Of a stretch of 46,128 nt of DNA, positions 4,905 through 14,304 are shown in pieces. The notes beneath the pieces are model-generated. The model saw only the letters and a program-made list of their open reading frames with translations. It had not been told where the DNA came from and did no database searches. The DNA lies in the NCBI GenBank assembly GCA_016195025.1, contig JACQAL010000057.1, forward strand, positions 1 through 46,128, read 5' to 3'. This DNA comes from Bacteroidota bacterium (GTDB lineage: Bacteria; Bacteroidota; Bacteroidia; Palsa-948). The position numbers were made by a program, and so were the translations under genes. The number at the start of each line of letters is the position of its first letter. The stretch's first letter is position 1.

Positions 4905-4931
4905 AACCATTTTTCTTATTTTAGTATCTAT
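4905..4931 (+). promoter_or_regulatory. predicted ECF-sigma promoter (AACC-N15-GTATCTAT)
   Basis: AACC at 4905-4908 and GTATCTAT at 4924-4931 are separated by exactly 15 bp. The same bipartite element with the same spacer length lies before the collagen-like gene (6947-6973). ECF sigma factors often read a -35 containing AAC and autoregulate, so this is probably the sigma factor's own promoter. The -10 box overlaps the ATG at 4930, which argues that the gene is translated from the downstream TTG. Confidence 0.55.
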
Positions 4932-4950
4932 GTTTAAAAGGAGGAATACT

Positions 4951-5511
4951 TTGTCACTTAATAGCGAAGAACAACTTATCAATGGATGCATTGAGCAAGA
5001 CACGGCATCTCAAAATAAAATATATAAATTATTTGCGCCTAAAATGTTTACAGTATGTATTCGATATTCAAGAAACAGAGAAGATGCTGAAGATACTTTG
5101 CAGGAGGGATTTATGAGAGTGTTTAATAACATAAAAAGTTTCAGGCATCAGGGATCATTTGAAGGATGGATGCGAAGAATTATAATTAATGTAGCGATAC
5201 GAAAATATAAAGACAAATCGAATTTATTTACTGTAATTAATATTGATGCGATAAATTGCGATACTTATTATGAGGAAAATACATTGAGCGAAATTAATTC
5301 GAAAGAGCTGCTTAAACTTATTCAGGAATTGCCTGAAAAATGCAAAATGGTTTTTAACTTATATGTATTTGAAGGAATGAAGCACAGCGAAATTGCTGAG
5401 TTGCTGGGTATAACGATTGGAACATCCAAATCAAATTTATTTGACGCGAGAGAAATTTTAAAACAGGAAATTGCTAAAACAGAAACTATTCAGATGACAG
5501 CTAACGCATGA
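4951..5511 (+). CDS. ECF RNA polymerase sigma factor
   Basis: Region 2 is clear: P-K-M-F-T-V-C-I-R-Y followed by D-A-E-D-T-L-Q-E-G-F-M-R-V-F and then the G-S-F-E-G-W-M-R-R-I motif. Region 4 reads E-L-P-E-K-C-K-M-V-F-N-L-Y-V-F-E-G-M-K-H-S-E-I-A-E followed by an HTH. There are no extra domains. I place the start at TTG 4951 because AAAAGGAGG (4936-4944) is a strong Shine-Dalgarno 6 nt upstream, a rarity in this phylum. The longer ATG 4930 start lies inside the predicted -10 box. The stop overlaps the next ATG by 4 bp, so translation is coupled to the barrel protein, which probably holds or signals to this sigma factor. The gene is much more AT-rich than the core genes in this window. Confidence 0.9.
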   Translation: MSLNSEEQLINGCIEQDTASQNKIYKLFAPKMFTVCIRYSRNREDAEDTLQEGFMRVFNNIKSFRHQGSFEGWMRRIIINVAIRKYKDKSNLFTVINIDAINCDTYYEENTLSEINSKELLKLIQELPEKCKMVFNLYVFEGMKHSEIAELLGITIGTSKSNLFDAREILKQEIAKTETIQMTANA

Positions 5512-6917
5512 TGGACGAAAACAACATAGACGATTTGTTCAGAGATAATGTTGAGCCGTTGAGAATAAAACCTCCTGAAAAAATTTGGAGTTCACTGGAA
5601 GCATCTTTAGAAAAAAAGAAGACAGCGGTTTATAAAAGAAGGGTATTTTATTTTCAAACACTCTCGGCTATTCTTGCTGTAGCGTTGATATTCATACTGT
5701 CATATGAGTATTTTAATGCTTCAAAAAATGTTTCTGCTAAAAGCAATGAAATAAATGAAATATCAGCGAAGAAGAATGTAATAAATACTTTAGTTGCAAC
5801 GAATGAGGATAATTCACAGAGTAATAATTTATCAGAAAATAATATTACTGTAAAGGGAAAAAAGACAAATGCGGAGATTATTCATTCTAAAGAAGTGTTT
5901 GAAAAAACAAAGTCAAAAAAATCTTTTTATGATGAAACGATAAAAAGAAATTTGGTTTCAGAAAATTCAGAAGTCAAAAAAGAAAATAATCTGGAAAGCA
6001 ATTTATCTAATGAAAAAAACATTAAGAACAATGATGCAAATGAGATTGCAAAACAAAATCAAACTGCACAAGAAAATATTATAGTGAAAAATGATTCGGT
6101 GAAAATAAATTTAGGCAAAGCAAACAAAGATTCATCAGAGAAATCGGAATTGAAACAAGAAACTGTTTCACAAAATGATTCATCTGCAAATAATACAACT
6201 GAAGGTTCAAAAACAAATCAAAATTTCTTATCTCATATCTCAATTTCTGCCTTTTTCTCACCTGAATATGTACAACATTACTTGAGCAACAGCAATTATA
6301 AAAATGATTTCAATAAAAATGAAAACCCTGATTTTTCTTATACTGCTGGAATAAAATTAGGATGCGATTTGAATAAGTATTGGACACTGCAATCGGGAGC
6401 ATTTTTTTCTTCTTTATCGCAGAATATAAAACCAACAACACTTTTTGCAAAGAACGGCTCTGACGGTTCACCACATTATATGATGCCAACATCGTATGGA
6501 ACTATTGAAGTGCCTAATTCTTCTTCGATACCGAAAGAAGGGGACACAACAGACAGCTATTCATGCAAACAAACTTTTCATTTTATTAGCATTCCTTTAT
6601 TGCTGAAGTATAAGATACAATCGGGAAAATTAAATTACTATTTATTTTCAGGAGCAACTTTCAATTTGTTGATTGCAGATAAAGTAAATATGCAACTGGA
6701 ACAAAAACATGAAACGATTCAGAACGGCACAAATGGCTTGAATAAATCAAATGCAAGCGCGATATTGGGCGCAGGCGTTCAGTATAACATAAGAAAATTT
6801 AATTTATATCTTGAACCTGCATACAGAAGGTCGGTTACTTCAATCACCAAAAGGATTTATGCGAATTCCTATCCTTATTCATTCGGGTTATCGCTGGGCA
6901 TAGGTTATCATTTTTAA
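5508..6917 (+). CDS. membrane-anchored outer-membrane barrel protein (putative anti-sigma fusion)
   Basis: The 469 residues fall into four parts. A cytoplasmic N-terminus of about 45 residues contains a D-D-L-F-R-D / P-P-E-K-I-W-S-S-L-E motif, and one transmembrane helix spans about 47-68. A low-complexity Asn/Lys/Ser/Glu-rich linker runs from about 70 to 240, and a C-terminal domain from about 243 to 469 resembles an outer-membrane beta-barrel (PorT/OmpA-like), ending in aromatic G-Y-H-F. The N-terminus resembles those found on barrel proteins directly behind ECF sigma genes in Bacteroidota, so an anti-sigma or sensing role is a reasonable inference. The linker is long enough to cross the periplasm. 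The 4-bp overlap with the sigma gene supports a shared function. No zinc-binding HxxxCxxC anti-sigma motif is visible. Confidence 0.75.
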   Translation: MMDENNIDDLFRDNVEPLRIKPPEKIWSSLEASLEKKKTAVYKRRVFYFQTLSAILAVALIFILSYEYFNASKNVSAKSNEINEISAKKNVINTLVATNEDNSQSNNLSENNITVKGKKTNAEIIHSKEVFEKTKSKKSFYDETIKRNLVSENSEVKKENNLESNLSNEKNIKNNDANEIAKQNQTAQENIIVKNDSVKINLGKANKDSSEKSELKQETVSQNDSSANNTTEGSKTNQNFLSHISISAFFSPEYVQHYLSNSNYKNDFNKNENPDFSYTAGIKLGCDLNKYWTLQSGAFFSSLSQNIKPTTLFAKNGSDGSPHYMMPTSYGTIEVPNSSSIPKEGDTTDSYSCKQTFHFISIPLLLKYKIQSGKLNYYLFSGATFNLLIADKVNMQLEQKHETIQNGTNGLNKSNASAILGAGVQYNIRKFNLYLEPAYRRSVTSITKRIYANSYPYSFGLSLGIGYHF

Positions 6918-7016: not shown

Positions 7017-7508
7017 ATGAAAACAAAAATCTTTCTTTCGATTTCAGCGATTGCGCTGATGTTTATTTTTTCGTGCAAAAAAGGTGACACTGGACCTGCT
7101 GGCGCTACAGGTACAGCTGGAGCAGCAGGTAATGCAAATGTGCAGACCTACACTTTCAGCGTTACAAGTGCTTCATGGGCGGCAGATACTGTTGACCAAG
7201 AATGGAGTTCAGATTATACATTGCCTTCTGCTGCAAATGTCAGCGGAGCTGTTTTATGTTATGCTCAGGATGGCAGCAATTGGTCTGCACTGCCTCATGT
7301 TGATTACGGAGTGGCATTTTCTTTTAGTTATGACCCTTCTACAAAAATCATAGAGGTAGTTGCTGCTGACGCAAAGGCTGCTTCAATGGTTCCTAATCCG
7401 GGTGCTATGACTTTCAGGGTGGTTACAATTCCTACGGCAAAAGTTAAAGCAAATCCAACACTTAATTGGAAGAGTTACGAAGAAGTAAAGACAAAATTTA
7501 ATCTTTAA
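7017..7508 (+). CDS. collagen-like-repeat lipoprotein
   Basis: This 163-residue protein has a lipoprotein signal peptide: M-K-T-K, a hydrophobic core, then F-I-F-S-C with the lipid-attachment Cys near residue 20. Directly after K-K come collagen-type G-x-x triplets (G-D-T-G-P-A-G-A-T-G-T-A-G-A-A-G-N-A), and then a domain of about 115 residues rich in beta-strands. Short collagen stubs on lipoproteins are common in Bacteroidota, and the family is uncharacterised. It probably sits on the outer membrane. Its promoter matches that of the ECF sigma gene, so it is likely part of that regulon. A 13-bp stem hairpin (7535-7581) follows the stop. Confidence 0.8.
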   Translation: MKTKIFLSISAIALMFIFSCKKGDTGPAGATGTAGAAGNANVQTYTFSVTSASWAADTVDQEWSSDYTLPSAANVSGAVLCYAQDGSNWSALPHVDYGVAFSFSYDPSTKIIEVVAADAKAASMVPNPGAMTFRVVTIPTAKVKANPTLNWKSYEEVKTKFNL

Positions 7509-7534
7509 TAGGACTTACACAGAAGTTTATTTTT

Positions 7535-7581
7535 GCCACAGATTCACAGATTTTTTCTTTTTTGACAAGTGAATCTGTGGC
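7535..7581. terminator. 13-bp perfect inverted repeat (GCCACAGATTCAC), likely terminator
   Basis: GCCACAGATTCAC (7535-7547) pairs with GTGAATCTGTGGC (7569-7581) around a T-rich 21-nt loop, 27 bp beyond the collagen-like gene. No T-run follows the second arm on the plus strand, and T-rich DNA precedes the first. It may act on both strands, or it may be a dispersed palindrome of the kind seen elsewhere in this phylum. Confidence 0.6.
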
Positions 7582-7835
7582 TTATTTGTATTTCTTGCGT
7601 AGACAAAGTGGTCAATGGACAGCGTGTGACGATACACCATCTTCCAAACCCGCAAGGTCAAACCCATTCCGCAAACTACTTCAAGGTAAATTCATTTTAT
7701 TGTTTGCGTAAAGAGTTTGCCCTTGCTGTGCTTTTCGGCAAACCGACAACTTTTCACTCCGTAAATTTAAAACCATCTCAACAATTAACATTTTTCTCAG
7801 CAGACAATTCCGCAGACAGACAAGAAACATGACGG
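7582..7835. other. gene-free stretch before the attC-like region
   Basis: An 87-codon frame covers this stretch (7569-7832), but it has no domain, no biased composition and no ribosome site, and it starts inside the hairpin above, so I do not call it. Nothing else is recognisable. Confidence 0.4.
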
Positions 7836-7853
7836 GTGCGGATGTGGTTAACA
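7836..7853 (+). repeat. 18-bp element, inverted partner of 4548-4565
   Basis: GTGCGGATGTGGTTAACA differs from the reverse complement of 4548-4565 at one position. It is followed at once by CGGGCTTGCG (near 7855), whose complement CGCAAGCCCG recurs at 7953-7962, so this copy is also the outer arm of a larger foldback of about 130 bp that ends at the attC-like hairpin. Confidence 0.5.
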
Positions 7854-7913
7854 GCGGGCTTGCGCAATGCGGGCAACATCGGTAAAATAAAGTTCCCGCA
7901 TTTAATTATCTTT

Positions 7914-7976
7914 GTTCCAGCGGACAGCGAAGTGCTCCGAAACCCCGCACTTCGCAAGCCCGCGGAACGTTAGGTG
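7914..7976 (+). other. attC-like hairpin (possible integron cassette recombination site)
   Basis: GTTCC-A-GCGG (7914-7923) pairs with CCGC-GGAAC (7960-7968), leaving one extrahelical A. Inside lies a perfect 9-bp stem, GCGAAGTGC (7927-7935) with GCACTTCGC (7947-7955). The outer arm is followed by GTTAGGT (7970-7976), which fits the GTTRRRY core of an attC R' box. Bulged bases and a terminal GTTRRRY are hallmarks of integron cassette sites. The matching RYYYAAC R'' box is not evident at the left end, and there is no integrase in the window, so this may be a degenerate site or another palindromic repeat. Confidence 0.35.
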
Positions 7977-8061
7977 CAACCCTTTCGCTTCGGGGACAGC
8001 CCCGCAGTAACTTGACAGTAGGGACAAAAGAAACCCACCCACAAAAAAATATTTTTAAACA

Positions 8062-8094
8062 TTTGCTTAAATAAGAAATATTATACTATCTTTG
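8062..8094 (+). promoter_or_regulatory. Bacteroidota promoter with overlapping dyad (ArsR operator candidate)
   Basis: TTTG at 8062-8065 and TATCTTTG at 8087-8094 fit the -33/-7 consensus of Bacteroidota with a 21-bp spacer, 43 bp before the arsR-type gene. A dyad centred at 8070-8071 (CTTA-AA-TAAG, with TTTG and AAAT outside) overlaps the -33 box. This is where an ArsR/SmtB repressor would block transcription, so autoregulation is likely. Confidence 0.6.
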
Positions 8095-8137
8095 TGGCGT
8101 AATAGTGATGTAACAATAATTCAAAACAATAAAAACA

Positions 8138-8512
8138 ATGACAAAAGAAACATGTATCCGAGTGTATGCCGACCCTGTGCAAATCAGGGAATGCAGAAAA
8201 AAAGTCGCACAAAATGAAAAAACATTTTCTCAACTTTCAAATATTCTTGCATTAGCAGGGAGCGATGTTCGCCTGAAAATTTTATTTATGCTGGAAGAAG
8301 AAGATAAACTCTGCCCCTGCGATATTGCAGACATTCTCGGAATGACAGTTCCCGCAATATCACAGCACTTAAGAAAAATGAAAGACGGGAATATTATTGA
8401 ATCGCAAAGAACAGGGCAAACTATTTATTATTCGCTCAGGGAAGAAAATCTGAAAATCCTAAAACCATTTTTCAAACACATTACACAATCTATTAAGGAA
8501 GAAGTAGTATGA
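8138..8512 (+). CDS. ArsR/SmtB-family metal-responsive repressor
   Basis: This 124-residue winged-helix protein has D-V-R-L-K-I-L-F-M-L followed by the ArsR metal-site signature L-C-P-C-D (Cys59 and Cys61, equivalent to E-L-C-V-C-D of ArsR and CadC). The recognition helix reads T-V-P-A-I-S-Q-H-L-R-K-M-K. Two more cysteines, Cys6 and Cys19, lie in an N-terminal extension as in CadC-type sensors, which suggests a thiolate site shared between the N-terminus and the alpha-3 helix. Its stop overlaps the merTP-like start by 4 bp, so it probably controls that operon. Proteins of this kind replace MerR in many Bacteroidota mercury operons; the exact inducer cannot be read from sequence. Confidence 0.9.
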   Translation: MTKETCIRVYADPVQIRECRKKVAQNEKTFSQLSNILALAGSDVRLKILFMLEEEDKLCPCDIADILGMTVPAISQHLRKMKDGNIIESQRTGQTIYYSLREENLKILKPFFKHITQSIKEEVV

Positions 8513-9141
8513 GCGGAGAAAAAACATCAAAAGGACTTATCGGTGCTGGTATTCTTACCGCCATCGCAGCGTCTTTATGCTGTATAACTCCCGTGCTTGC
8601 ATTAATCGCAGGCAGCAGCGGGCTTGCTTCAACTTTTTCTTGGCTTGAACCCGCAAGACCTTATTTAATAGGTATAACTATTTTAGTAATTGGCTTCGCT
8701 TGGTATCAGAAATTAAAACCAAAGCCAACAGATGAATGTGGTTGCGAACCTGCCCGTCCGGCAGGCGGGGAAGATGAAAAACCAAAATTCATTCAGTCAA
8801 AAACATTTTTATCTATCGTAACAATTTTTGCAGCACTGATGATTGCCTTTCCGTATTACTCGCAACTATTTTTCCCCAACAATGAAAAACAAATAATCAT
8901 CATTGACAAATCTAATATTCAAACAGCAGAATTTACAATCAGCGGAATGAATTGTGAAGGATGTGAAGAAGAAGTAAAGCACGAAGTCAATCAACTCAAT
9001 GGAATTGTAAAAGCCGATGTATCCTATAAAAATGGAAATGCACAAATTCAATTTGATAATTCAAAAACAAATGTATCTGAAATTGAGAAAGCAATAAACT
9101 CAACAGGATATACAGTTACAAAATCAGAAATAACAAAATAA
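8509..9141 (+). CDS. merTP: mercuric transport protein MerTP (MerT-MerP fusion)
   Basis: The 210-residue product has three hydrophobic segments near 10-33, 49-66 and 98-118. The first carries the paired Cys24-Cys25 typical of MerT. A loop with C-G-C lies near 77-79. The C-terminal domain from about 138 is a heavy-metal-associated (HMA) fold with G-M-N-C-E-G-C (Cys149 and Cys152), equivalent to MerP. Such a fusion would bind Hg(II) outside and pass it to the transmembrane cysteines for import. Import normally feeds MerA reductase, but no MerA is in this window, so another thiophilic cation or an unlinked merA is possible. It is translationally coupled to arsR. Confidence 0.88.
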   Translation: MSGEKTSKGLIGAGILTAIAASLCCITPVLALIAGSSGLASTFSWLEPARPYLIGITILVIGFAWYQKLKPKPTDECGCEPARPAGGEDEKPKFIQSKTFLSIVTIFAALMIAFPYYSQLFFPNNEKQIIIIDKSNIQTAEFTISGMNCEGCEEEVKHEVNQLNGIVKADVSYKNGNAQIQFDNSKTNVSEIEKAINSTGYTVTKSEITK

Positions 9142-9148
9142 AATAACA

Positions 9149-9358
9149 ATGCCTGTTCAGGATATAAATGATGAAGAAAAAATATTCAATCCCCAAAAAA
9201 TGGGGTGCTGTGTTGACATTTCAGGTTTTATTATAGAAAACTTGCCTCAGAAACTAATTAATAAACTCGCTGGCAAGCCAATAAGCGAAGGCGAGGACAT
9301 CATAAAAGAATTTTTTAATCCAAAAGAAAAAATGATTATTAAATGGTCAAAAAAATAG
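9149..9358 (+). CDS. small conserved-looking protein of the metal cluster
   Basis: This is a 69-residue soluble protein with adjacent cysteines in M-G-C-C-V-D-I-S-G-F, about a third of the way in, and a Lys-rich end. It starts 7 bp after merTP and ends 13 bp before the next gene, so it belongs to the operon. I do not recognise the family. The Cys-Cys pair in a metal operon suggests a role as a metal carrier or accessory to the importer, but this is inference. Confidence 0.6.
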   Translation: MPVQDINDEEKIFNPQKMGCCVDISGFIIENLPQKLINKLAGKPISEGEDIIKEFFNPKEKMIIKWSKK

Positions 9359-9371
9359 AATCAAAAACTAA

Positions 9372-10100
9372 ATGAAAATGAAAAAAATAATTCTTGCATT
9401 CCTCACGGTTTTTTTATGCGGATGCGCTTGCTGTAAAAAAGCAAAATCCGAAACAATTACATTTTATGATGTCCCGCTGGTTTGTGGTGCGGCTCCCGAA
9501 ATCGGCTGCGGAAGCCGTGCAAAACCTGTCTTGCTTGAAATGGAAAAAAATCCTTCCATCAAAGAAGCGTGGCTCAATCGTGCGGGAACTGTTTATGCGA
9601 TCGTGTGGGCTAACGCAGATAAAACTGATGAAACTGCAAAACCGATTTTTGAAAAATATAAAGTTGATTTCAAAAAACTCAATAATAAAGAAGCAGAGAA
9701 ATTATCTCCGGCATTTCGTTCAACTGGAAAATGGTATCGCGGTGCGGATGTGGATAAATTAAGTATTGAGGAAGCAGGAGTAATCGCAAAAGACGCAGTA
9801 ACATTTGCGTTAAAAGATAAATTGCTCAACGAACAGGAAGCAAGCACCATTAGAGTTGAAATGGAAAATTATTTAAAAACAGAATTGGTAAAAGTCAGAA
9901 CCGTTGACGAACTCTATGGCAATGAAGGAACGAAAAAATTCAAAAATGATTTGTCAGGCATTATCGCCAAAACAATCGGAAAGGAAAGAGCCGACAAAAT
10001 AACAGAACTCTATATGCAGAAAAAATCTTTTGAAAAGAAAGAAAAGAAATCCTGCTGCGATAAGAAAACTGAAAAAGACGCTTGCTGTAAAAAGAAATAA
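9372..10100 (+). CDS. Cys-rich lipoprotein-like protein of the metal cluster
   Basis: The 242-residue protein opens with a short hydrophobic signal leading to C-G-C-A-C-C-K-K, a plausible lipobox region, although the spacing allows either periplasmic or lipid-anchored export. A conserved-looking segment F-Y-D-V-P-L-V-C-G-A-A-P-E-I-G-C-G-S-R follows near residues 31-49. The central part is helical and charged. The tail carries two Cys-Cys pairs in Lys-rich context (S-C-C-D-K-K and A-C-C-K-K-K). I recall similar proteins beside mercury-transport genes in Bacteroidota but know of no assigned activity. The tail looks like a metal-chelating extension. A second ATG two codons downstream is equally possible as the start. 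Confidence 0.65.
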   Translation: MKMKKIILAFLTVFLCGCACCKKAKSETITFYDVPLVCGAAPEIGCGSRAKPVLLEMEKNPSIKEAWLNRAGTVYAIVWANADKTDETAKPIFEKYKVDFKKLNNKEAEKLSPAFRSTGKWYRGADVDKLSIEEAGVIAKDAVTFALKDKLLNEQEASTIRVEMENYLKTELVKVRTVDELYGNEGTKKFKNDLSGIIAKTIGKERADKITELYMQKKSFEKKEKKSCCDKKTEKDACCKKK

Positions 10101-10103
10101 ACC

Positions 10104-10325
10104 ATGAACAAAACAATCATATTACAATCTGTAATCACCTGTCCGAATTGCGGACACAAGAAAGAAGAAACAATGCCAACGGATGCCTGCCAGTTTTTTT
10201 ATCAGTGTGAAAATTGCAAAACACTTTTAAAACCAAAAGAAGGCGACTGTTGCGTATTCTGTTCCTATGGTTCACTTCCCTGTCCGCCCATTCAGGAAAG
10301 CGGAGGAAAAAAACATTGTTGCTGA
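10104..10325 (+). CDS. GDCCVFCSYG small zinc-ribbon-like protein
   Basis: The 73 residues hold C-P-N-C-G-H near the start, C-E-N-C in the middle, then the motif G-D-C-C-V-F-C-S-Y-G followed by P-C-P-P-I-Q, and a terminal H-C-C. The two CxxC pairs form a zinc-ribbon-like pair. The GDCCVFCSYG small-protein family recurs next to mercury and other metal resistance genes in many bacteria and is of unknown function. It starts 3 bp after the preceding stop, so it is clearly in the operon. With 11 cysteines in 73 residues it could act as a small metal buffer or a handover protein. Confidence 0.8.
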   Translation: MNKTIILQSVITCPNCGHKKEETMPTDACQFFYQCENCKTLLKPKEGDCCVFCSYGSLPCPPIQESGGKKHCC

Positions 10326-10353
10326 AAATATTTTAACAATAAAAACAAACAAA

Positions 10354-11046
10354 ATGAAAACAAAAATCTTTACTCTTCTTACAGCACTTGTGCTTAGCGC
10401 ATCTTTTATGAATGCTCAGACAAGTTTTACTTTTTCCTGCTCACAGACATTTGATACTTGCAGTGGAAGTTGCACGCTGTATTATATGTGCAGCGTTACA
10501 AACAACACGAGCAATACGATTAGTGTTACTCAAATTATTCAATCAACAAATTGCCCTTCGGGCTGGTACACGACCATGTGCAATGTCAACGGCTGTTTTC
10601 CTTCTTCCGTTACCTCAAATACATTTACGGTCGCAGCCAATTCTTTCGAAACAGCAACGTATCAGATTCATACCAATACAAATTTAGGTACAGGAACTGC
10701 TCAGGGAAGATTTGAAAATGCCGCCAATACCAGCGATGGAATTTCATTTACACTCACGGGTGTGAATGGAAGTTCAACAGGCGTTGCATCTTTTGATAAT
10801 TCAAATTTAACCCTCTCTCAGAATTTTCCTAATCCTTTTTCAGAAAGCACAACGATTAAATACGATCTCGCACAGCCGGATGGAAAACTTATTATAACAG
10901 ATGTTTTCGGAAGAAGGATTCATGAATACAAATTAAACAATGTATCAGGAGAAGTCATTGTTAATGAAATGAAGTCGGGAATTTATTTTTATTCACTTTA
11001 CAGCAACGATAAAATGATTTCAAAAAATAAAATGCTCGTTCAATAA
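10354..11046 (+). CDS. T9SS-exported Cys-containing protein with C-terminal sorting domain
   Basis: The start at ATG 10354 gives a signal peptide that ends A-Q. The mature part begins with a Cys cluster of the form F-S-C-S-Q, D-T-C-S-G-S-C and Y-M-C-S, and further Cys lie in N-C-P-S-G-W, T-M-C-N and N-G-C-F. The fold is probably a beta-sandwich. The last 75 residues are a type A T9SS sorting domain: F-P-N-P-F-S-E-S-T-T-I-K-Y, then G-K-L-I-I-T-D-V-F-G and finally G-I-Y-F-Y-S-L. The protein is therefore exported to the surface or released. It lies 28 bp after the GDCCVFCSYG gene. Such high Cys content is unusual for a T9SS cargo. Function unknown. Confidence 0.75.
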   Translation: MKTKIFTLLTALVLSASFMNAQTSFTFSCSQTFDTCSGSCTLYYMCSVTNNTSNTISVTQIIQSTNCPSGWYTTMCNVNGCFPSSVTSNTFTVAANSFETATYQIHTNTNLGTGTAQGRFENAANTSDGISFTLTGVNGSSTGVASFDNSNLTLSQNFPNPFSESTTIKYDLAQPDGKLIITDVFGRRIHEYKLNNVSGEVIVNEMKSGIYFYSLYSNDKMISKNKMLVQ

Positions 11047-11068
11047 CTCAAACTAAAAACTCAACACA

Positions 11069-11446
11069 ATGAAAACAAAACTTTTTATTCCGCTCATTCT
11101 GCTTGCAGCAGCGTTCACAATGGTAATCTCCTGCAAGAAGAAAAAGCAGGAAGCGCCAACGGTTCCCTTGTCCTACACAAGTTTAAAGGCACAAAAGGAT
11201 ACCATATTTGTGGGCAACTCAATTCAAATAACCGCAACTGCAACTGGTGACAACATCACCTATTCATGGGCGTTAACTACTAATCCTCAAGGGGGAAGCA
11301 GTATGGGTGATATTATCGGAGGAGGCGCAACCATTACCTATGGCACATCTCCATGCTGTTCCGGGTGGAATACTATTACCTGCAAAGTTTCAGATGGGGC
11401 TAGTTCACAATCAAAAAGCGTAACCATCGTGGTGAAAGAACCATAA
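11069..11446 (+). CDS. PKD-like lipoprotein with Cys-Cys motif
   Basis: This 125-residue lipoprotein has a signal peptide ending V-I-S-C, followed by K-K-K-K and an Ig/PKD-like beta domain: V-G-N-S-I-Q-I-T-A-T-A-T-G near 50-62, Y-S-W-A, and S-K-S-V-T-I-V-V near the end. Inside the domain lies S-P-C-C-S-G-W-N-T-I-T-C. The C-C-S-G motif recurs in the next gene and nearly so in the outer-membrane barrel that closes the cluster. It starts 22 bp after the previous stop. It probably sits on the periplasmic or outer face of the outer membrane. Function unknown. Confidence 0.7.
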   Translation: MKTKLFIPLILLAAAFTMVISCKKKKQEAPTVPLSYTSLKAQKDTIFVGNSIQITATATGDNITYSWALTTNPQGGSSMGDIIGGGATITYGTSPCCSGWNTITCKVSDGASSQSKSVTIVVKEP

Positions 11447-11501
11447 TAATTTCTCAATAATATTTTTTATCAATAAACATAAACCCCTAAAACCAATTAC
11501 C

Positions 11502-12980
11502 ATGAAAAAAATTTACACATTTTTATTTGCAGGTGCAACGATGCTTTCGCCTGCATTCGCTCAACCAATTATTAAAGTGGAAGGAGGAGCCGACCACACT
11601 GTGATTTTAAAATCCGATGGCACAGTTTGGTCTTTTGGCAGAAACACGAATGGTCAGCTTGGCGATAACACAACAATAAACTCTTCAACTCCCATTCAAG
11701 TTCACGGGACTGGAAATGTGGGATTTCTTACAGGAATCATTGACATCGGTGCCGGCTTAAGACACAGCATGGCATTGCGCAATGATGGAACTGTGTGGAC
11801 CTGGGGCGACAATGCCGATGGTCAGATTGGAGATGGAACCAACACTGCACGTTTAACTCCTGTCCAAGTGAAAGGATTGGGTAATGTTGGCTTTCTTATG
11901 AATGTTACAAAAATCAGTACATCAAAAAGAGTTTCGTATGCGCTTTTATCTGACAGCACCGTTGCTGCATGGGGAGTTGATTATGCCGGGCAGCTTGGGG
12001 ATGGAGGAACCACAGCAAGAAATTATCCCGACAGAGTGAAAGGATATAACTTTGTTGGCTACCTGACAGGAATAATTGCGATACGCGGAAATTGTTGTTC
12101 GGGCACTGCGCTTAAAAGTGACGGAACAGTTTGGATGTGGGGCGAAAGTCAATACGGACAACTCGGAAGAGGAGTAGTAAGCAGCACTCCTGCGCAAACA
12201 CCCGATATGGTGCATGGTGTCGGAAATGTTGGAACACTTAACAATATTATAGCAATCGGTGGTGGCAGTTATCATATTTTTGCAATCAATAACAGCGGAC
12301 AACTTTTTGGCTGGGGGCTTGAAGCAACCGGAGCATTAGGCAATGGAGTCAACTCCGGCAATCAATCTTCTCCGGTGCAGATAAACCTGACGAATGTTGT
12401 TCAGGTGGCAGCAGGCGGTGACCCGCTTTCACCTCACGGAATGGCTTTGCTTTCAAACGGACAGATTTGGTCGTGGGGTTACAATGCTTCGGGCGAAGTG
12501 GGAAACGGCAATAACGCCAACCAACTTGTTCCCGTTCAATCCACCAGCATAACAGGCACTGTTGTTCAGATTGATTGCGGATGGGAACATAGTTTGATTC
12601 GCAAGAGCGATGGCTCTGTCTGCACCGTTGGAGAAAATCAATACGGGCAACTCGGTGATGGAACTTTAATTGACAAAAATGTTTTCACCTGCCCTGCTGT
12701 GCTTACTTCTATTTCTGATTATCAAAATCCATCTGAAAATAATTTTGTTTACAATTATCCAAATCCATCTTCTGATTTCACAACAATAAAATACCATCTC
12801 AACAGTTCAGATGGTAAAATTGTTATTCGCGATGTTATGGGAAAAGAAATTGAGGAATTTATTTTGAATACCTCTATGGGTGAAATCAGGATGAATAAAA
12901 AAACTTCTTCAGGAATATATTTCATTGCTTTATATCAAAATAATGTTTTGGTTTCCACAAATAAAATGATAATGCAATGA
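11502..12980 (+). CDS. RCC1-repeat protein with T9SS sorting domain
   Basis: The 492 residues begin with a signal peptide (ends F-A-Q-P). RCC1/ALF repeats follow, with about seven copies of the type G-x-x-H-[ST]-x-x-L-x-x-D-G-T-V-W-x-W-G followed by N-x-x-G-Q-L-G-D-G, forming a beta-propeller from about 22 to 400. One blade carries G-N-C-C-S-G-T-A-L-K-S-D-G, where Cys-Cys replaces the usual residues before the A-L-K-S-D-G strand. The last 75 residues are a T9SS type A sorting domain (Y-P-N-P-S-S-D, G-I-Y-F-I-A-L-Y), close to that of the 10354 gene. The protein should be displayed on the surface or secreted. RCC1 propellers are binding scaffolds; the ligand is unknown. It overlaps the next gene by 4 bp. 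Confidence 0.85.
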   Translation: MKKIYTFLFAGATMLSPAFAQPIIKVEGGADHTVILKSDGTVWSFGRNTNGQLGDNTTINSSTPIQVHGTGNVGFLTGIIDIGAGLRHSMALRNDGTVWTWGDNADGQIGDGTNTARLTPVQVKGLGNVGFLMNVTKISTSKRVSYALLSDSTVAAWGVDYAGQLGDGGTTARNYPDRVKGYNFVGYLTGIIAIRGNCCSGTALKSDGTVWMWGESQYGQLGRGVVSSTPAQTPDMVHGVGNVGTLNNIIAIGGGSYHIFAINNSGQLFGWGLEATGALGNGVNSGNQSSPVQINLTNVVQVAAGGDPLSPHGMALLSNGQIWSWGYNASGEVGNGNNANQLVPVQSTSITGTVVQIDCGWEHSLIRKSDGSVCTVGENQYGQLGDGTLIDKNVFTCPAVLTSISDYQNPSENNFVYNYPNPSSDFTTIKYHLNSSDGKIVIRDVMGKEIEEFILNTSMGEIRMNKKTSSGIYFIALYQNNVLVSTNKMIMQ

Positions 12981-13942
12981 AACACTTTTTCATAGTAGTA
13001 TTGGTTAACTTGTTGTCAGGAGCGGCATTTTCACAGTGCTGCTCCCCGGGCAACCCCGTTGGGGGAACAACCAATATTGGCGTTCTGGATAAAAAAACCC
13101 TGCGTGTTATTACTTTCTATCGTCACAGTTATTCCGATACCTATTATTCTGGTGATTCCAAATCCGATTTCTCTTTTGTGAAAAATGCTTCTTTCAATTA
13201 TGCGGGGCTTGTGCTCGGCTATGGTCTGCTGAAAAAATTAACTCTTGAAACCGAATTAGGTTATTTCATTAACAAAACCCAAACCTATAATATAGAACCT
13301 GCTTACACAAACACAGGATTTGGATTTAATAACACAGTGCTCTCTCTGAAATATAATTTGATTTCCAAAACAGAAAAACCTTTTGAATGGACAGTCGGAG
13401 CAGGAGCAAAAATTCCCTTTTCAAAAGAATTCCAAATCGTTGACAATTCCGAACTTCCGCGAGATGTTCAACCCTCAACACACGCTTTTGGAATCGTAGC
13501 ACAATCTTTTCTTTACAGGGGATTTCCTGAAAAAAGGTTACGATTATTTTTCATCAGCCGCTATGAATATAATTTTACCGACACCAAAAATTATATGTAC
13601 GGAAATGTTCTGTTCTCTTCATTCTTCATTGCAAAAAAATTAGGCACATCAAACTGGACAGCGATATTGCAAACCCGTCATGAGTGGCGCGATTATGATT
13701 ATAAAGACGCTTCAGACCAAAATTCCAAAATCAATTCTTCAGGTGGAAATTTAATTTTCATTTCTCCGCAAATCAATTACACTGTTGCACAAAAATGGAA
13801 TCTTTCTCTCCTTGCCGATTTTCCTGTTTATCATTATCTAAACGGCACACAATTAGGAAATAAATTTTCTGTCGCTGTTTATTTGTCAAGGGACTTTGGC
13901 GGGAAGTGTGAAGTGAAAGAAGAAGAAAAATTACCTGACTGA
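12977..13942 (+). CDS. outer-membrane beta-barrel protein with N-terminal CCSPG motif
   Basis: A 321-residue protein with a signal peptide ending F-S-Q. The mature N-terminus is C-C-S-P-G-N-P-V-G-G, followed by alternating amphipathic strands with aromatic girdles up to a C-terminal V-A-V-Y-L-S-R-D-F-G region, as expected for a 12- to 14-strand barrel. I recall uncharacterised Bacteroidota outer-membrane proteins that start with C-C-x-G-G-x-x-x-P-I-A-G-G and are annotated only as transporters; this looks like one. The Cys pair would lie at the periplasmic end of the barrel or act as a lipid site. Translational coupling to the RCC1 gene and the position at the end of a metal-transport cluster suggest metal or ligand passage across the outer membrane. 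Confidence 0.7.
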   Translation: MKHFFIVVLVNLLSGAAFSQCCSPGNPVGGTTNIGVLDKKTLRVITFYRHSYSDTYYSGDSKSDFSFVKNASFNYAGLVLGYGLLKKLTLETELGYFINKTQTYNIEPAYTNTGFGFNNTVLSLKYNLISKTEKPFEWTVGAGAKIPFSKEFQIVDNSELPRDVQPSTHAFGIVAQSFLYRGFPEKRLRLFFISRYEYNFTDTKNYMYGNVLFSSFFIAKKLGTSNWTAILQTRHEWRDYDYKDASDQNSKINSSGGNLIFISPQINYTVAQKWNLSLLADFPVYHYLNGTQLGNKFSVAVYLSRDFGGKCEVKEEEKLPD

Positions 13943-13961
13943 CAGCAAACAGACAACTTAT

Positions 13962-14000
13962 AAAAGGTTTCTCCCTACCTTACTTCGGAGAAACCTTTTT
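13962..14000 (+). terminator. intrinsic terminator after the nine-gene cluster
   Basis: AAAAGGTTTCTCC (13962-13974) pairs perfectly with GGAGAAACCTTTT (13987-13999), and the arm ends in a run of five Ts. It lies 20 bp beyond the barrel gene and defines the end of the 8138-13942 operon. Confidence 0.85.
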
Positions 14001-14040
14001 GCATTTATACCGAAAGTAGTCAGGTTTTCGAACTTCTGGT

Positions 14041-14127
14041 ATTCATCAACGAATACGAATCAAAAACGAATTTACGAATGAAAAAACAAATCCATCCTAT
14101 TATTCGTAATTCGAGAATTCGTTATTA
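14041..14127. repeat. ACGAAT-type palindrome
   Basis: Multiple ACGAAT words (14049-14079) face ATTCGT words (14102-14123). ACGAATTTACGAAT at 14066-14079 pairs with ATTCGTAATTCG at 14102-14113 apart from one bulged base. The same motif style is seen in the 18879-18975 palindrome, so this is probably a second small repeat family in this genome. Confidence 0.5.
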
Positions 14128-14129
14128 AC

Positions 14130-14304
14130 GCAAGTTACTACCTTCAATAATGGTCATTTTATATGGATAACATCATGCGAAAAATGCGAATGTATGCGAA
14201 CACTGCGAACAAAATGCAAAGAAAAAATTCGCGGTGTTCGCATTTGTTCGCGGCATTTGCATTATTTTATCAATTCCTATCATTCAATAGGTGGCAACTT
14301 ACAT
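14130..14304 (+). mobile_element. MITE/REPIN-like element, copy 1
   Basis: About 175 bp, almost identical to the reverse complement of 16380-16569. The ends are imperfect inverted repeats of the type AAGTTNCNACCT...AGGTGGCAACTT. Inside, GCGAACACTGCGAA faces TTCGCGGTGTTCGC (13 of 14 paired) together with several ATGCGAA/TTCGC words, so the element folds into a long hairpin. It encodes nothing credible. The structure fits a non-autonomous transposable element or a REP doublet moved by a transposase elsewhere. Confidence 0.75.

Follow-up and report, generated by a model that had tools for sequence, protein, structure and literature searches.

Why should an operon for mercury uptake end in genes for the outer membrane and the cell surface? 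The question is raised by nine genes (g1 to g9, in order) at positions 8138-13942 of contig JACQAL010000057.1 (assembly GCA_016195025.1) from a Bacteroidota bacterium, in which the importer MerTP is followed by cargo of the type IX secretion system (T9SS), a lipoprotein and an outer-membrane barrel. We analyzed the whole stretch of 46,128 nucleotides, hereafter the window. The nine genes form a real operon, probably ArsR-controlled, with a single predicted promoter and a terminal terminator, and g7 and g9 are, as their recurrence shows, a conserved lipoprotein-barrel pair that the phylum has in mer, ars and cus contexts. We give an even chance to the reading that an outer-membrane module for thiophilic metals has here been added to an operon for mercury uptake. 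The features on which the argument draws are as follows.

8050..8094, plus strand: promoter, with TTTG at 8062 and TATCTTTG at 8087; it holds the presumed ArsR operator and is kept in sister operons
8138..8512, plus strand: g1, ArsR/SmtB metalloregulator of 124 aa, 93.5% identical to the ArsR of the mer operon on contig C55
8509..9141, plus strand: g2, MerTP fusion (MerT plus an HMA/MerP domain) of 210 aa, NF033556
9149..9358, plus strand: g3, orphan protein of 69 aa with GCCV
9372..10100, plus strand: g4, mer-associated lipoprotein-like protein of 242 aa with a tail rich in Cys-Cys pairs and the motif VPLxCxxxxEIxCG
10104..10325, plus strand: g5, GDCCVxC protein of 73 aa, NF041374
10354..11046, plus strand: g6, T9SS-sorted secreted protein of 230 aa (TIGR04183), with 7 Cys and no Cys-Cys pair
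11069..11446, plus strand: g7, small Ig/PKD-like lipoprotein of 125 aa, the conserved partner of the barrel
11502..12980, plus strand: g8, protein of 492 aa that joins an RCC1 propeller to a T9SS sorting tail, assigned by family scan
12977..13942, plus strand: g9, COG4313-like, 12-stranded outer-membrane barrel of 321 aa, with an invariant Q20-C21 at the presumed mature N terminus
13963..14002, plus strand: intrinsic terminator 3' of g9

The gaps between successive genes are -4, 7, 13, 3, 28, 22, 55 and -4 bp, confirming the nine plus-strand open reading frames (ORFs), no more than 55 bp apart, that an earlier note on this DNA had described. The only strict Bacteroidota-type promoter match between 7500 and 14300 (TTTG-21-TATCTTTG, 8062/8087) lies before g1, where the same note had placed a promoter with an ArsR dyad. 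The dyad is imperfect, yet the flanking block TTTAAxxATTTGCTTAAxTAxGA is kept 5' of the ArsR genes in two other ArsR-MerTP operons, a sister operon on contig C55 and the locus L047. The strong terminator proposed after g9 is also there (-17.4 kcal/mol, z -5.8, 0 of 200 shuffles); having a loop of 12, it was overlooked by a fixed-loop scanner. An internal promoter and terminator near 10.33 kb had been named as what would split the cluster. The scan of 7500-14300 gave no strict Bacteroidota-type promoter near that point, neither a promoter nor a terminator was detected between g5 and g6 in the scans of the cluster, and the sigma-70 and terminator matches within it were mostly chance-like.

The first half of the operon is familiar. 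In a class sample drawn evenly, 49 of the 68 MerTP genes have GDCCVxC no more than 1 kb away, so that g1, g2 and g5 can be assigned by homology to the usual Bacteroidota ArsR-MerTP-GDCCVxC operon. Their scores exceed the cut-offs throughout: g1 reaches 77.1 bits with NF033788 (cut-off 55) and 64.3 with PF01022 (22), g2 293.1 bits with NF033556 (curated cut-off 180) and g5 112.4 bits with NF041374 (curated cut-off 40). The use of ArsR in place of MerR has been reported for Bacteroidetes mer operons (PMC3466566), and the cluster resembles these ArsR-MerTP-MerA operons in its MerTP and its regulator, while it is without merA and has g3, g4 and, for the envelope, g6-g9 in addition. Relatives of g3 were absent from 26 genomes, with one chance-level plasmid match. 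In the literature searched we found no paper on GDCCVxC, nor on T9SS with mer.

Neither MerA nor MerB is among the nine cluster products, as had been noted, and without merA the operon is not a complete mer operon. MerA is present elsewhere in the genome, in which contig C55 carries a sister operon (L009) of co-directional genes in the order ArsR, MerTP, MerP-like, MerA, Cys-rich proteins, CsoR-like regulator, second MerTP-like protein and, as the last two, paralogues of g7 and g9. Its MerA scores 489 bits against a cut-off of 454. Identity to the window is 93.5% for ArsR, 65% for MerTP, 42% for the g7 paralogue and 50% for the g9 paralogue, and the DNA from the promoter through MerTP is 77% identical over 1118 bp. 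The two operons are probably co-regulated. With MerA in the sister operon under a 93.5% identical ArsR, its absence from the cluster is explained and the scavenging or sequestration system earlier proposed for it need not be invoked.

Our scan of the genome contig set, which yielded 64 barrel relatives, shows how g7 and g9 are distributed. A g7-type lipoprotein stands directly 5' of the barrel at 39 of the 64 loci by a strict script, and at about 44 by eye. The neighborhoods include ArsR-ArsF-ArsG-ArsP-ArsC operons, CusB/CusC and ArsP_2, and HME-RND genes also adjoin. The ArsG/ArsF/ArsP arsenic operons of Bacteroidota hold the same g7-barrel pair at about 9 of the 64 loci, with metalloid genes where the window has MerTP. 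Moreover, some barrels are fused to metal-related domains, the heavy-metal-binding domain (HMBD) in 5 of 50 and HMA in 2 of 50. The earlier note had stated that its proposal would fall if homologues of the late genes were never found near mer genes; both g7 and g9 occur in the C55 operon, and g9 also in L047 (ArsR-MerTP-MerP-GDCCVxC-barrel). The link to MerTP thus stands for these two genes, which recur in ars and cus contexts as well, but most barrels are not near MerTP. Further observations on the family are that the barrel of L088 has a C-terminal stretch resembling MerP/HMA and that of L213 is similarly long (432 aa); that in L011 (G006:C232, 4683-9150) the g7-barrel pair lies, by eye, beside apparent metal ABC transporter genes and a His-rich protein; that PF03773 occurs near barrels in one case of the class sample (G143:C111); and that plasmids gave a single 25% match to the barrel.

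At about 16 of the 64 loci, a T9SS-sorted redoxin-like gene (motif WVMPCxxC) replaces the lipoprotein directly before the barrel, and in L075 the redoxin-like gene, g7 and the barrel are all present. Such loci favor the strongest rival, that the family has a general part in thiol chemistry of the periplasm or the surface, acting on sulfur species, disulfides or small molecules bound to thiols, with metals as only one customer, the barrel handling the thiol side in mer, ars and cus loci. Thioredoxin-like, AhpC/TSA or DUF3179 neighbors of the barrels in other classes (L214-L223 and L226 for DUF3179 and thioredoxin-like proteins) point the same way, as do some genomes in which, by eye, the gene next to a g6 relative is redoxin- or thioredoxin-like. 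However, the fused HMBD and HMA domains and the ars, cus and mer contexts point to metals, and no thioredoxin gene is part of the operon in the window; barrels of the redoxin-preceded subfamily themselves often end in a heavy-metal-binding domain. We regard a role in thiol chemistry as possible but rather doubtful.

The structural model of g9 has 12 strands and a predicted local distance difference test (pLDDT) score of 89.6. Its best structural match is Pput2725 (4rl8; Z 26.4, root-mean-square deviation 2.4 over 257 residues). The predicted 12-stranded fold is common to the COG4313/PF13557 channels Pput2725, SphA and TcpY, from which g9 differs in its invariant Q-C at the N terminus, its metal context and a PF13557 score (20.7 bits) below the gathering cut-off of 22; 12 of 50 g9 relatives match PF13557 at E<0.01. 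A sequence search of solved structures returned no match for g9 and, for g7, weak matches of Ig/PKD type only. Known COG4313 channels have been linked to hydrophobic substrates, and the N-terminal segment of Pput2725 occludes the barrel lumen (PMC4493636). On this analogy, the lumen of the g9 barrel may hold its invariant Cys.

The same comparisons bear on a different role, in which g9, with g7, would be a cargo-specific secretion or anchoring partner of neighboring surface proteins and not a metal channel. The amyloid exporter FapF, second to Pput2725 in the structural comparison (VIA Z 23), is ranked first by Foldseek, and in the window g8, a T9SS protein, shares 4 bp with g9. The fold search did not pick out PorV/SprF-type barrels, a result that does not exclude them. 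Of 54 genes that precede the module, 18 encode a T9SS tail and 19 a Fib_succ_major domain, so a surface or secreted partner before the module is common, albeit of variable type. Against such a role, the cargo types differ wholly between loci, the ars operons and C55 lack T9SS cargo beside the g7-g9 pair, and some barrels are fused to metal-binding domains. We consider it improbable.

The proposal of a surface-to-MerTP system had drawn on adjacent Cys pairs. Seven of the nine products do contain Cys-Cys (g2, g3, g4 three times, g5 twice, g7, g8 and g9, with none in g1 or g6), far above chance when compared with 3 of 36 other ORFs in the window and 24 of 403 in control regions (6-8%), and the motif CCSG or CCSP is present in the three envelope proteins g7, g8 and g9, as described. 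Alignments of the families tell a different story about function. In the barrels, Q20-C21 is kept in 50 of 50 and the second Cys in 34 of 50; in the lipoproteins, the lipobox C22 and C105 are kept in 39 of 39, C96 in 36 of 39 and C97 in 12 of 39. Because of this pattern, constraint falls on single Cys positions, one in the barrel and C96 and C105 in the lipoprotein besides its lipobox, and the Cys-Cys pair is ruled out as a shared functional signature of g7 and g9.

Several results weigh against a mercury-uptake operon with an added metal module. Only three loci (the window, C55 and L047) have a barrel less than 10 kb from MerTP, and this genome accounts for two of them; in the class sample a barrel is near 2 of 68 MerTP genes, both in this genome. 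In other classes DUF3179 and thioredoxin-like genes adjoin the barrel and metal genes rarely do; of 16 cases, one is an ars case. In favor of the reading, metal genes occur in 17 of 51 barrel regions versus 1 of 38 controls in the class sample (Fisher p=3e-4; length-corrected p=0.003), but this count is supportive, not independent, the metal query set having been drawn partly from barrel neighbors and some class-sample genomes overlapping the genome contig set. Residues 13-30 of g9 have a pLDDT below 50, and a location of the N-terminal segment in the lumen is not predicted by the model. Finally, g3, g6 and g8 are not conserved at this position. Both g6 (37.3 bits) and g8 (32.6 bits) are T9SS cargo by the TIGR04183 sorting domain (cut-off 23); no g8-like RCC1 protein stands beside the 64 other barrels, and g6 relatives, found in 12 of 53 genomes, are on other contigs. 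The earlier scheme therefore keeps its metal handling, which the fused HMBD/HMA domains and metal contexts support, and loses the Cys-Cys motif and the specifics of g6 and g8.

The lack of counterparts to g6 and g8 in other barrel loci also favors the view that g6-g9 are an unrelated surface module, placed beside the MerTP operon by chance through a mobile cassette array, as does the rarity of barrels near MerTP genes. One further feature counts in its favor:

7849..7976, plus strand: attC-like repeat (TAAC...ACGTTA), 160 bp 5' of g1; the genome has 26 matches, this one included

These repeats, about 125 bp long with the sequence diverging right after GTTA, are clustered between ORFs in a single orientation per contig (G000 contigs C35, C10, C59 and C55; L239-L242), and look like a chromosomal integron cassette array. 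Another lies 1.75 kb 5' of the C55 mer operon. Chance is opposed by that second mer operon, which also ends in g7-g9 paralogues; since these are only 42-50% identical to those of the window, the mer link is old or recurrent. L047 repeats this link for the barrel, and no promoter or terminator separates g5 from g6. We find a chance association improbable too, if marginally less so than a secretion partner. Farther upstream in the window, 4930-6917 encodes an extracytoplasmic function (ECF) sigma factor and then a protein that contains an outer-membrane barrel domain. The product of 7017-7508 resembles a lipoprotein, matches no family and includes a short GxT/GxA stretch of collagen-like type. 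Upstream of the C55 operon (by eye) and of merT2 on plasmid pMR68 there is a sigma factor as well.

On that plasmid, from Pseudomonas sp. K-62, the genes merT2-merP2 have a g4 homologue (39% identity) after them. The cluster has been described, with the homologue neither named nor studied (PMC3737084); unlike the window, it has no annotated barrel or T9SS genes. Together with its other occurrences, this makes g4 an undescribed family of mer operons in two phyla. Relatives adjoin merR in Rhodanobacter, precede ArsR-MerTP on a Fibrella plasmid and follow ArsR in G029; in G328, ArsR-MerTP-g4 is followed by an FAD oxidoreductase that by eye looks MerA-like. Three genomes of the same genus have a single ORF that fuses g4 with GDCCVxC (L115, L117 and L120); one of the three is the genome of the window itself, where the fusion, on C58, is a third locus. 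The similarity of g4 to HMA/MerP (hhalign, 69% over 45 columns) is suggestive at most, with no Pfam HMA match; no relative was found among solved structures, and its single-sequence AlphaFold model has a pLDDT of 47. An identification of g4 as MerG was not adopted, the K-62 homologue lying on pMR68 beside merT2-merP2 and merG on pMR26.

A mercury-uptake operon with an outer-membrane module would work as follows. By homology, g1 is the ArsR sensor and g2 the inner-membrane importer with a MerP-like domain, accompanied by GDCCVxC and the mer-linked g4. At the surface, g7 and the proteins g6 and g8 would hold, capture or redox-condition the substrate, and g9 would form an outer-membrane channel whose N-terminal Cys segment would lie in the barrel lumen, as the N-terminal segment of Pput2725 does in its own, and might bind or gate thiol-bound metal. 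g4, MerP and GDCCVxC would then pass the substrate on to MerT, and reduction could occur in trans by the MerA of the sister operon. Transport by the module, and its direction, are what we infer from this arrangement.

Mercury is drawn in published mer schemes as diffusing across the outer cell wall (PMC3466566, PMC8261052). We tentatively propose that Bacteroidota have a hitherto unrecognized outer-membrane stage for toxic thiophilic metals, in which a Cys-plugged barrel of COG4313 fold, a lipoprotein dedicated to it and a partner at the surface, often of T9SS type, make up one module shared by mer, ars and cus operons. If so, mercury would cross the outer membrane not by diffusion alone, the outer membrane would gain a dedicated part, and surface secretion would be tied to metal handling. 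The unnamed families of g4, g7 and g9 would acquire functions open to test through deletion and metal-binding experiments. The cluster suggests, without proof, that toxic metals are handled at the outer membrane, too, in these bacteria.

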